From the NCBI RefSeq assembly GCF_013415305.1, contig NZ_JACBXU010000002.1:372001-436000 (forward strand): 64,000 bases of DNA. Direction: 5' to 3'. A model generated the notes under the pieces. The model ran no database searches, was not told the DNA's origin, and worked only from the letters and a program-made list of their open reading frames with translations. The DNA is from Pantoea sp. WMus005 (GTDB taxonomy: Bacteria; Pseudomonadota; Gammaproteobacteria; Enterobacterales; Enterobacteriaceae). Shown here in pieces: positions 55,458 to 59,963 of the stretch. Each line of letters opens with the position of its first letter. Position 1 is the first letter of the stretch. A program made the position numbers and the translations under genes.

Positions 55458-56375
55458 ATGATCAAACAAAGGACATTAAAACGTATTGTTCAGGCGACTG
55501 GTGTCGGTTTACATACCGGCAAAAAAGTCACGCTGACATTACGCCCTGCGTCGGCTAATACCGGGGTCATCTATCGTCGCACCGACTTGAATCCACCGGT
55601 AGATTTTCCGGCTGATGCAAAATACGTGCGCGACACCATGCTAAGTACCTGCCTGGTGAATGATGAAGGCGTGCGTATTTCAACGGTTGAACACCTCAAT
55701 GCCGCCCTGGCGGGTCTGGGTATTGACAACATTATTGTTGAAGTTGATGCGCCAGAAATCCCGATCATGGATGGTAGCGCAGCACCGTTTATCTATTTGC
55801 TGATGGATGCCGGTATCGAGCAGCTCAACAGCGCGAAGAAATTTGTGCGTGTTAAGCAGACCGTGCGTGTGGAAGAGGGTGACAAATGGGCTGAGATCAA
55901 ACCGTATAACGGTTTCTCTCTTGATTTCACCATCGACTTCAAACACCCGGCTATTGATTCCAGTTCACAGCGCTATGCGATGAACTTCTCTGCTGACGCG
56001 TTTGTTCGTCAAATCAGCCGGGCGCGTACATTTGGCTTTATGCGTGAAATCGAATATCTGCAGTCTAAAGGCCTGTGCCTGGGCGGTAGTTTAGATTGTG
56101 CGATCGGCCTGGATGATTTCCGCGTACTGAATGAAGAAGGTCTGCGTTTTGAAGACGAGTTTGTCCGTCACAAAATGCTGGACGCGATTGGCGACTTGTT
56201 TATGTGTGGTCATAACATCATTGGCGCATTTACTGCTTTCAAATCAGGCCATGCACTGAACAACAAGCTGCTGCAAGCGGTTCTGGCGAAGCAGGAAGCC
56301 TGGGAATGGGCAACCTTCGAAGACGAAGCTGAACTGCCAGTGGCATTCAAAGCACCGAATCTGGTTCTGGCTTAA
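55458..56375 (+). CDS. lpxC: UDP-3-O-acyl-N-acetylglucosamine deacetylase
   Basis: 305 residues. Zinc deacetylase, committed step of lipid A synthesis; turned over by FtsH in E. coli. Zinc His in [17 protein letters not shown] (about residue 79) and the pair in [15 protein letters not shown]; catalytic Glu in the same N-terminal motif. Start at [15 protein letters not shown], equal in length to E. coli; the frame opens seven codons earlier at a GTG. The C terminus ends in hydrophobic residues (NLVLA), the type of tail recognised for proteolysis in E. coli LpxC. A terminator follows. Confidence 0.98.
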
Positions 56376-56444: not shown

Positions 56445-56676
56445 ATTGCCTCCAGTAACACGCCTGAAGACTGCAACCTCGCTCGCAACGCATTGTCTGT
56501 TCTGCTGAATTGCTGAACAATCACACACCTTTTCTCACGCCGCCACTTTAATCCCAGGTGTGGATGCCCCACATTAATGTTACTATCTGTGGCGCTTTTA
56601 CAGGCCGAAATCCGTTGCGGCTCGCGGCGGGTACACGAAAACAAAAGCGCAACAGAGCGTGCGCGATGGAAAGGTT

Positions 56677-57183
56677 GTGATCGGGATTCTTCTGCGCTGG
56701 CGACAATTAGGTAGACGCTACTTCTGGCCTCATCTCCTGTTAGGGATGGTAGCGGCCAGCTTTGGCCTGCCGGCCTGTGCGCAAAGCTCTGAACTCAACG
56801 CGTCGTCTGAATCGCCAGCCAGCAGCCTCTTTCTTGGCAATGCCACACGCTTTGATCACTTAATCCGGCTTCAGGAAGCATCCCGACGCCCGAGCTTCAG
56901 CGTGGATTACTGGCATCAGCACGCCATCCGCACCGTTATTCGTCACCTCTCTTTCACGTTGTCGCCCCAGGCGCAGGCGGAGCAACAACAGTTACCGCTG
57001 GCGGCCCAAAAGCTGGCGCTGATCGACTCGCTGCATAATTTACTGACATCACATTCTGCGCAACATACCTCTTCGCAGCAGATGACAACACCGCCTCTCT
57101 TCATGGTCGTTACCCGCTCATGGGTAGAATGGCATGCCCGCGTGCATGGCATTCGCGCCGGACCCACCCGATTGTTCTGCTAA
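56677..57183 (+). CDS. secM: Secretion monitor SecM, diverged arrest motif
   Basis: 168 residues with the GTG start (GGAAAGG upstream), as in E. coli. SecM is exported and its C-terminal peptide stalls the ribosome unless pulled by the Sec machinery, thereby exposing the secA ribosome site. N-terminal RWRQLGRRYFWPHLLLGMVAA and the internal DYWHQHAIRTVIRHLSF are well conserved. The arrest region reads RSWVEWHARVHGIRAGP, ending at Pro163. GIRAGP and the Trp six residues before it are kept; the essential Phe and Ile of E. coli (F150, I156) correspond to Arg147 and His153. The middle of the protein is otherwise poorly conserved. Confidence 0.93.
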   Translation: MIGILLRWRQLGRRYFWPHLLLGMVAASFGLPACAQSSELNASSESPASSLFLGNATRFDHLIRLQEASRRPSFSVDYWHQHAIRTVIRHLSFTLSPQAQAEQQQLPLAAQKLALIDSLHNLLTSHSAQHTSSQQMTTPPLFMVVTRSWVEWHARVHGIRAGPTRLFC

Positions 57184-57257
57184 TAGTATTGGTTCTACTC
57201 ACTCTTTTTAGATTTCGCAGCCCGGAATGCCCCGGCTGAATTGAGAATATATTTATT

Positions 57258-59963
57258 ATGTTTAGCAAAATATTAACCAAGGTTTTTGGTAGCAGTAACG
57301 ATCGTACACTGCGTCGTATGCGCAAAGTGGTGGACGTCATCAATAAGATGGAGCCCGATTTTGAGAAGCTCACTGACGATGAACTGAAAGCCAAAACCGA
57401 CCTGTTCCGCGAGCGCCTGAAAAAAGGTGAAACGCTGGAAAGTCTGATCCCGGAAGCGTTCGCGACCGTGCGTGAGGCGAGTAAACGTGTGTTCGGAATG
57501 CGTCACTTCGACGTGCAGCTGATCGGTGGCATGGTGCTGAACGACCGCTGCATTGCTGAGATGCGTACCGGTGAAGGTAAAACACTGACCGCAACGCTGC
57601 CAGCCTACCTGAATGCGCTGTCCGGCAAAGGCGTTCACGTGGTTACCGTCAACGACTATCTGGCACAGCGTGATGCGGAAAATAACCGTCCACTGTTTGA
57701 GTTCCTGGGTTTAAGCATTGGTATCAACATGTCGGGCCTGCCGGCTGTGGCGAAGCGTGAAGCTTACGCAGCAGACATCACCTACGGTACCAACAACGAA
57801 TATGGCTTCGACTACCTGCGCGATAACATGGCTTTCAGCCCGGAAGAGCGCGTACAGCGTAAACTTCATTATGCGCTGGTGGATGAGGTAGACTCCATCC
57901 TGATCGATGAAGCGCGTACGCCTTTAATCATCTCCGGTCCGGCAGAAGACAGTTCTGATCTCTACACCAAAGTTAACAAGATCATCCCTCATCTGGTTCG
58001 CCAGGATAAAGAAGATACTGAAACCCATCAGGGCGAAGGTGACTTCTGGATCGATGAGAAAGCGCGTCAGGCGCACATGTCTGAGCGCGGTCTGGTAAAA
58101 GTGGAAGAGCTCCTGGTCAGCCAGGGCATCATGGAAGCGGGCGAGTCACTCTATTCACCGACCAACATCATGCTGATGCACCACGTCACTGCAGCACTGC
58201 GTGCGCACGCACTCTTTACCCGCGATGTTGATTACATCGTTAAAGATGGCGAAGTCGTGATCGTTGATGAACACACCGGCCGTACCATGCAGGGGCGTCG
58301 CTGGTCAGATGGCCTGCATCAGGCGATTGAAGCCAAAGAAGGCGTAGAGATTCAGAATGAGAACCAGACGCTGGCCTCTATCACCTTCCAGAACTACTTC
58401 CGTATTTACGAGAAGCTGGCCGGTATGACCGGTACTGCGGATACCGAAGCGTTCGAATTCAGCTCTATTTACAAGCTCGATACCATTGTCGTGCCGACTA
58501 ACCGTCCAATGGTGCGTAAAGATCTGGCTGACCTGGTCTACATGACTGAGAAAGAGAAGATCGATGCGATTATCGAAGATATCCGCGACCGCACAGCCAA
58601 TGGCCAGCCGGTGCTGGTGGGGACCATCTCGATTGAAAAATCAGAAGTGGTTTCTAACGAACTGACCCGAGCCGGTATTAAACATAACGTCCTGAACGCC
58701 AAATTCCATGCCCGCGAAGCGGATATTGTTGCGCAGGCTGGTCAGCCAGGCGCGGTCACTATCGCGACCAACATGGCAGGACGTGGTACGGACATTATGC
58801 TGGGTGGTAGCTGGCATGCTGAAGTGGAAGAGCTGGAGGAGCCGACTGAAGCGCAAATCCAGGAGATTAAAGCGGCCTGGCAGATTCGTCATGATGCGGT
58901 TCTGGCGTCAGGGGGTTTGCACATCGTGGGTACTGAGCGTCACGAATCCCGTCGAATCGATAACCAGCTGCGTGGTCGTGCAGGCCGTCAGGGTGATGCC
59001 GGTTCTTCACGCTTCTACCTGTCAATGGAAGATGCGCTGATGCGTATTTTCGCCTCAGACCGCGTGTCGAATATGATGCGTAAATTGGGCATGAAGCCAG
59101 GTGAAGCGATTGAGCATCCGTGGGTGACGAAAGCAATTGCCAACGCACAGCGTAAAGTTGAAAGCCGTAACTTCGATATTCGTAAGCAACTGCTGGAGTA
59201 TGATGATGTGGCTAATGACCAGCGTCGCGCCATCTACAGTCAGCGTAATGAGCTGCTGGATGTGTCTGACGTTAGCGAAACCATCAACAGCATTCGCCAC
59301 GATGTCTACAAAGCCACTATCGATACCTACATTCCGCCACAGTCGCTGGAAGAAATGTGGGACGTGCCAGGCCTTGAAGAGCGTCTGCGTACTGACTTCG
59401 ATCTGAACCTGCCGATAGCAGAGTGGCTGGATAAAGAGCCTGACCTGCATGAAGAAGTGCTGCGAGAGCGCATCATGACTCATGCCATGGAAAGCTATGC
59501 AGAGAAAGAAGAGATCGTTGGCGCGGAAATGATGCGCAACTTCGAAAAAGGCGTGATGTTGCAGACGCTGGATTCGTTGTGGAAAGAGCATCTGGCAGCG
59601 ATGGACTATCTGCGTCAGGGCATCCATCTGCGCGGCTATGCGCAGAAAGATCCGAAGCAGGAGTACAAGCGTGAATCCTTCGCCATGTTCGCTGCAATGC
59701 TTGAATCACTGAAATATGAAGTGATCAGTACGCTAAGCAAGGTGCAGGTGCGTATGCCTGAAGAAGTTGAAGCGATGGAGCAACAGCGTCGTGAAGAAGC
59801 TGAACGTCTTGCACAGCAACAGCAACTGAGCCATGTAGAAGAAGATCTGCTGGCAGAAGAGCCTGTGTCGGAGCAGAGTGGCGAACGCAAAGTGGGCCGC
59901 AACGATCCCTGCCCATGTGGTTCCGGTAAAAAGTTTAAGCAGTGTCATGGCCGCATCGCCTGA
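57258..59963 (+). CDS. secA: Protein translocase ATPase SecA
   Basis: 901 residues, same as E. coli. Motor that drives preproteins through SecYEG. Walker [21 protein letters not shown] near residue 102; [15 protein letters not shown] (DEAD motif); [41 protein letters not shown]-terminal zinc site [14 protein letters not shown] that binds SecB and phospholipid. Weak ribosome site TGAGA at a long distance from the ATG, in keeping with control by SecM; a short hairpin (57218-57238) lies just before it. Confidence 0.99.

Follow-up and report, generated by a model that had tools for sequence, protein, structure and literature searches.

SecM is a small protein believed to arrest the ribosome that translates it, and so to switch on the secretion motor SecA. 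It is a standard arrest peptide for ribosome tunnel work and for nascent-chain force measurements, and its motif is quoted as FxxxxWIxxxxGIRAGP. A short form of SecM is found in the Pasteurellales, to which Mannheimia belongs.

In E. coli SecM, F150 stacks on U2609, and T152, P153, I156 and I162 surround A2058 (PMC10951299); in an earlier structure, F150 lay at uL22, and W155 lay either at R61 of uL4 or at A751 (PMC4737659). F150, W155, I156, G161 and I162 have been graded as partially required for stalling, and R163, G165 and P166 as essential (PMC4737659). Stalling is reported to be abolished by alanine at either residue 150 or residue 156 but to remain at about half in F150Y and I156L, and W155 is intolerant to alteration and more essential than I156 (PMC6340945). 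The P153A substitution partly restores stalling of other motif alanine mutants, except R163A and G165A (PMC6340945). I162, R163 and P166 were the sole invariant positions among the SecM homologues then sequenced (Yap and Bernstein, 2009, as cited in PMC10951299), and in a collection of 626 SecM proteins the residues IRAGP were called critical (PMC10987492).

ApdA and ApdP, arrest peptides of the RAPP type, share with E. coli SecM the core conformation at the peptidyl transferase centre (PMC10951299; PMC12992588). Their genes, however, are unrelated to secM and lie upstream of secDF2 (PMC10987492), their core is RAPP rather than RAGP, and unlike SecM they have a short N-terminal requirement (PMC12992588). 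The short SecM of the Pasteurellales and that of Mannheimia succiniciproducens (core RGSP) are SecM homologs, among them an active relative whose core is related (PMC10987492).

The secM locus

The window is the whole stretch of 64,000 nucleotides of Pantoea sp. WMus005 DNA that was analysed. It contains lpxC, secM and secA in this order, all on the + strand (Table 1), with 74 nt between the secM stop and the secA ATG; the gene order in E. coli K-12 is identical. The longest open reading frame listed for secM starts with a GTG at 56659 (174 aa). The residue numbering of the initial annotation fits the inner GTG at 56677, which aligns with the start of E. coli SecM and is used here.

The secM product matches the Pfam family PF06558 (SecM; E=2.8e-43, 147.8 bits, cut-off 25) and the long-form NCBIfam model NF002799 (186.1 bits, E=5.2e-55, cut-off 100), and scores 27.7 with the short-SecM model NF038363, under its cut-off of 45. 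The short forms have a short spacer and an altered core, whereas the window protein carries RAGP. Like E. coli SecM, it has a DYWHQHAIRTVIRHLSF block in the mature region, W155 and GIRAGP, and the I-R-A-G-P core stands near the stop codon. Its N-terminus, LLRWRQLGRRYFWPHLLLGMVAASFGLPACAQS, is similar to that of E. coli SecM and is a candidate Sec signal sequence. When the whole window genome was searched with a degenerate codon pattern for GIRAGP, in which arginine was represented by CGN codons alone, one match was found, and the reversed control gave none on either strand. Judged by its sequence, the gene is a retained SecM ortholog.

Table 1. Features of the lpxC-secM-secA region, in positions of the window
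Feature	Position	Strand	Remark
lpxC	55458..56375	+	ORF from 55437; start set at the inner ATG of MIKQRTL
secM CDS	56677..57183	+	Start at the GTG that matches the E. coli start; 168 aa
Phe at site 145	57100..57102	+	Same residue throughout the clade, from two codons (TTC 9 / TTT 7)
Arrest segment, E. coli residues 150-166: RSWVEWHARVHGIRAGP	57115..57165	+	
Arg at the F150 site	57115..57117	+	R in 16/16 clade members (CGC 14 / CGT 2)
Second Trp, at the T152 site	57121..57123	+	TGG in 16/16 clade members
Trp at W155	57130..57132	+	W in 55/59 genus members
His at the I156 site	57133..57135	+	CAT in 16/16 clade members
GIRAGP core	57148..57165	+	IRAGP in 59/59 of the genus
Pro codon of the core	57163-57165	+	A-site codon expected in the stalled ribosome, by analogy with E. 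coli (PMC10951299)
Five-residue tail TRLFC past the critical proline	57166..57180	+	
RNA hairpin directly ahead of the secA ribosome site	57218..57238	+	Compensatory changes across the genus
GAGA, presumed secA ribosome-binding site	57243-57246	+	First base 15 nt ahead of the ATG
secA, presumed regulated gene	57258..59963	+	

The arrest segment of the window protein

The window SecM ends RSWVEWHARVHGIRAGPTRLFC, and its C-terminal stretch ...TRSWVEWHARVHGIRAGPTRLFC is closed by a stop at 57183. Residue numbers are those of E. coli K-12 SecM (locus L262), transferred by an alignment anchored on GIRAGP. In this numbering the end reads R150, S, W152, V, E, W155, H156, A, R, V, H160, G, I, R, A, G and P166, followed by TRLFC. 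Relative to E. coli, F150 is thus replaced by R in the window protein, T152 by W, P153 by V, V154 by E, I156 by H, S157 by A, Q158 by R, A159 by V and Q160 by H, so that F150 and I156 of the E. coli motif are lacking. The tail past P166 has five residues, and that of E. coli has four (QRLT).

The initial annotation had reported these features, namely Arg and His in place of F150 and I156, a second Trp and an upstream Phe (sites 152 and 145) and the longer tail, and all of them are borne out by the alignment. Its description of the peptide was correct, but the peptide that it quoted begins at 57115, two bases ahead of the start given for it. It further called F150 and I156 essential, which is too strong in view of the partial grade of both residues in PMC4737659 and of the stalling left in F150Y and I156L (PMC6340945), even though alanine at either site abolishes it there.

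Variation in the genus

SecM was detected in 59 of 61 genus genomes (58 relatives and the window strain), and the tails of all 59, window included, were read. I162, R163, A164, G165 and P166 are kept in every one of them. Residue 150 is highly variable (H 17, R 17, N 6, T 6, F 3, S 3, Q 2, L 2, P 2, Y 1), and residue 156 is H in 23, Q in 20, L in 8 and R in 8. The initial annotation had considered that relatives with F and I at these sites would mark a loss specific to this sequence; F150 occurs in 3/59 and I156 in 0/59, so that no such loss is indicated. Proline is found at site 153 in none of the 59, the window having Val, and H160 in 47. The tail after P166 has five residues in 37 and three in 22.

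The other SecM proteins of the genus are like that of the window in the core, in the polar residue 156 (51 of the 59) and in H160, but form several dialects, with 30 distinct 150-166 segments among 59 rows; rows are related by descent, the 180 rows of genus and family together holding 130 distinct segments. Dialects besides that of the window include H..ADWQAAIHGIRAGP, N..AFWLSALQGIRAGP and T..ADWRSKTHAIRAGP, and some forms are without W155, such as DGHGKVHGIRAGP. A group of seven species (L161, L162, L164, L165, L166, L168, L169) has Ala for Gly161 together with Arg156 (WRSKTHAIRAGP) in 7/7.

In a tree of the lpxC and secA flanks, the window lies inside a group of 16 species (SH-aLRT 83, and 97 for 13 of them), all of which carry RSWVEWHA[RS]VHGIRAGP. 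Viewed as a single sequence, the window peptide might have been taken for a strain-specific loss or a sequencing error, a reading for which nothing beyond that view speaks; the presence of the R150/W152/H156 set in 15 further species refutes it and leaves it with a negligible probability.

Two genus genomes differ in another way. In G043, a 1.4-Mb genome, secA and its GAATTGAGA ribosome site are kept (L299, about nt 1263-1443), and upstream of secA no intact SecM frame was found, SecM-like remnants alone being present; in our reading these would be a secM pseudogene. In G052 neither SecM nor secA was found, and since secA is likewise missing there, the absence of SecM is probably due to an assembly gap.

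The E. coli motif in the family

In a family sample of 198 genomes, 126 had SecM, 124 of these outside the genus; 122 of the 124 loci were taken in (G135 and G111 were left out) and 120 were aligned (L237 and L229 yielded no RxGP tail, L237 because of its altered core and L229 because its true frame is interrupted by a stop and another frame was read). With the 59 genus members and E. coli, the alignment comprises 180 SecM proteins. In a cross-check by secA-anchored extraction, used for this purpose only, 81 of the 261 loci yielded no secA, and many of these do not carry SecM.

Outside the genus, residue 156 is L in 66, I in 35, V in 18 and M in 1 of the 120 aligned, so that with E. coli counted it is aliphatic in 121/121, whereas His, Gln or Arg is found in 51/59 inside. 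A polar residue at this site is thus confined to the genus of the window among the 180. At least four changes are needed on the family tree and suffice for this distribution, which points to few events rather than many. Residue 150 outside the genus is mostly F (57), H (38) or Y (13), with others in the remainder of the 120. The idea that a planar residue is kept at 150 for stacking was rejected for the genus: F, H, Y or W occupies the site in 109/120 elsewhere, yet N, T, S, Q, L and P occur in the genus.

The complete FxxxxWIxxxxGIRAGP motif is present in 32/180 SecM proteins, E. coli included, and in 0/59 of the genus, and therefore defines a subset and not the family. The initial annotation had implied that the window sequence is peculiar, and this does not hold, the absence of F150 and I156 being genus-wide and the full motif being a minority form in the family. 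W155 is missing in 11/180, of which 4/59 are in the genus (G, C or R) and 7/121 elsewhere (R or L); such a loss could mean that the upstream half of the peptide is being let go. The W155-less proteins with intact IRAGP are L152, L160, L156 and L167 in the genus and L206, L225, L227, L231, L233, L235 and L249 elsewhere.

Counts for R163, G165 and P166 hold by construction because the tail filter requires R, G and P (RxGP), and the exception hidden by this filter is L237 alone. Altered cores are GNRADP in L237 (G128) and GTRAGP in L232 (G249, same genus) and L221 (G175); these three are candidates for a true loss or change of arrest. At L229 / L300 (G086), secM has an in-frame TAG and an intact C-terminal GIRAGP.

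H160 accompanies a polar residue 156 in 45/51, a pairing that may stem from few events, polar 156 taking only four changes on the tree. P153 occurs in 15/180, and 11 of these 15 carry both F150 and I156; the coupling is suggestive but lineage-bound.

The ribosomal side of the tunnel

A change in the peptide might be matched by a change in the ribosome. The 23S rRNA was read in eight relatives in the genus because the window genome holds just a 62-nt piece of it; four of the eight (G002, G014, G016, G057) are from the clade of the window. Thirty of the 56 copies listed were fetched, two of which are partial. In the 28 full-length copies, 22/22 tunnel sites, including 751, 2058, 2062, 2503-2506, 2585 and 2609, are the same as in E. 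coli. On the protein side, the comparison was made for uL22, uL4 being visible over its last 17 residues only. The uL22 of the window strain is 96% identical to that of E. coli (4/110 residues differ); residues 82-110 are identical, and the S81T substitution adjoins the loop. Ribosomal compensation was rejected accordingly, with no difference at the 22 rRNA sites or in the uL22 loop. Within the parts checked, it is thus the peptide that has changed and not the ribosome.

Rates of change and selection in the arrest segment

Changes per site were counted by parsimony, as the fewest required, on trees built without SecM. The linker sites 122-148, used as background, have a mean of 13.1 changes in the genus and 49.3 elsewhere in the family. 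Site 150 has 16 changes in the genus (1.22 of background) versus 24 elsewhere (0.49), and so drifts like the linker in the genus. At site 156, 5 changes (0.38 of background) and no more than four states were counted in the genus, which suggests that it is constrained, but to another residue class. Site 155 has 3 changes in the genus and sites 162-166 have 0. In uncorrected binomial comparisons of the genus with the rest of the family at five sites, the rate shift gave p=0.006 for site 150, a rough value because parsimony saturates on the deeper tree, p=0.037 for 158, p=0.066 for 155, p=0.66 for 156 and p=0.83 for 160.

In the 16-species clade, codons 150-166 have a pN/pS of 0.013/0.244 (dN/dS 0.044), and the adjacent linker codons 125-149 one of 0.144/0.428 (dN/dS 0.252). 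Within the segment, site 158 alone varies (R/S), codons 150-160 contain seven extra synonymous codons, and codons 161-166 contain four with unchanged amino acids (dN/dS 0). Residues 150, 151, 153, 154 and 159 are invariant despite synonymous changes. The invariance of residues 152, 155, 156, 157 and 160 says less because each has one codon only, 152 and 155 being encoded by the single Trp codon; as all 16 members have CAT at 156, selection on H156 is inseparable from that on the segment. The contrast holds relative to the adjacent linker and not relative to the whole gene, because conservation is as high elsewhere in SecM: the SecM body has a dN/dS of 0.056, and 34 of 162 eleven-codon stretches of secM vary as little as codons 150-160. 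With this scope, the codon comparison shows a signature of purifying selection on the arrest segment in the clade of the window.

These rates bear on the possibility that SecM in the genus is weakened, in that the core would still pause the ribosome but the stall would be short without F150 and I156, resulting in a leakier sensor for secA. Such a weakening would fit the loss of stalling by F150A and I156A in E. coli (PMC6340945), the background rate of evolution at site 150 and the absence of W155 in 4/59; against it, R150, S151, W152, V153, E154, W155, H156, A157, V159 and H160 are unchanged in the 16 clade species, and site 156 changes slowly between four states in the genus, whereas a merely relaxed site should drift. 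Weakened stalling is thus considered unlikely. The initial annotation had left the choice between a variant arrest code and weaker stalling; the former fits better than decay, given IRAGP in 59/59 and the selection on codons 150-166.

The leader RNA between secM and secA

The initial annotation noted a weak ribosome site for secA. This site, presumably GAGA, is real but no peculiarity of the window, as GAGA is invariant among the 58 distinct leaders of the genus. In the hairpin immediately upstream, 94.6% of the cells of the alignment pair, and 49 cells are changed on both sides versus 16.9 in shuffles (0/500 as high); in slid versions these two values are no higher than 51.8% and 11. Two of five measures are less clear, namely pairs changed on both sides (8/500 shuffles as high) and further pair types (73/500). 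The E. coli fold has a small hairpin at a similar place beside the secA site.

The secA ribosome site is predicted to be masked by RNA structure. In single minimum-energy folds, which are weak evidence, its partner in the window is a CUCA that lies 33-36 nt beyond the P166 codon, and in E. coli the P166-Q167 codons; the tail codons of the window pair elsewhere. Since the pairing arm differs, the switch of E. coli might not operate in the window. When a stalled ribosome was simulated, the mean pairing of the secA site in the 58 sequences of the genus was 0.64 as compared with 0.61 before, with a decrease in 6 and an increase in 9; E. coli, taken as the control, showed no response in this test (0.76 to 0.73).

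In the consensus fold by RNAalifold, GCCGGA of codons 164-165 pairs with early secA codons. Codons 167-171 of the tail have a pS of 0.031 in the clade and some amino-acid change; with synonymous change nearly absent and amino-acid change present, these five codons suggest a constraint on the RNA rather than on the peptide. Arrest might thus have been lost and the last codons of secM kept for the structure of the secM-secA leader RNA, a possibility to which the low pS of the tail, the pairing of codons 164-165 and the covarying leader hairpin would all be congenial. But no pair between codons 164-165 and secA is changed on both sides, codons 150-166 do change synonymously (pS 0.24, pN 0.013), the four extra synonymous codons in 161-166 leave every amino acid as it is, and truly changed cores look different (GNRADP in L237; GTRAGP in L221 and L232). 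A role of these codons in RNA alone is accordingly given a very low probability.

A possible arrest mechanism in the genus

The window gene is probably a working, orthologous SecM with a lineage-specific upstream contact code. A point to the contrary is that His, Gln or Arg at 156 is a non-conservative change. In such a SecM, the stall would end when the chain is pulled by the Sec machinery, and translation of secA would be favoured up to that point. The upstream half of the arrest peptide would position the core or tune the position of R163. In the genus, the contact of F150, made with U2609 in E. coli, would no longer be required, and His, Gln or Arg would take the place of the aliphatic contact of residue 156, made with A2058 in E. 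coli. The clade of the window has the set R150/W152/V153/E154/W155/H156/H160 fixed, perhaps with F145, a candidate substitute contact. For the individual contacts, and for a non-proline, flexible residue at 153 as the likely permissive step, these roles are what we infer: flexibility at 153 may have allowed the change, because P153A partly rescues stalling in E. coli and Pro is found in 0/59 of the genus.

More specifically, the genus might run a different arrest code, in which U2609 stacking is dropped, a polar residue 156, with His160 and acidic 154, engages A2058 and its neighbours, and Phe145 and Trp152 serve as anchors in the clade. This fuller scheme is quite possible, although we stop short of calling it probable. 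If true, selection would have arrived at a natural solution which point mutagenesis in E. coli would call dead.

Meaning of the variant motif

In a literature search of open-licence papers, including those on Erwinia and Pantoea, no publication on the SecM motif of this genus was found among the titles listed. The novelty is modest because plasticity outside I162, R163 and P166 is already in print, and the logos in PMC10987492 (626 SecM) may already show part of this variation. Three points look new, namely the switch of residue class at 156, the relaxation of site 150 and the identity of the tunnel sites with those of E. coli, and the polar residue 156 is a testable new point.

As far as comparative sequence data can tell, the window protein is a genuine SecM of the ordinary kind, and its departure from the upstream motif of E. 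coli is a trait of the whole genus. The motif of E. coli is itself just one of several local dialects, and one genus has swapped an otherwise always-aliphatic residue for polar ones, with the checked parts of the tunnel unchanged. The variants of the genus are thus ready-made natural peptides for asking which upstream contacts arrest needs, and would be usable on E. coli ribosomes without ribosome engineering.
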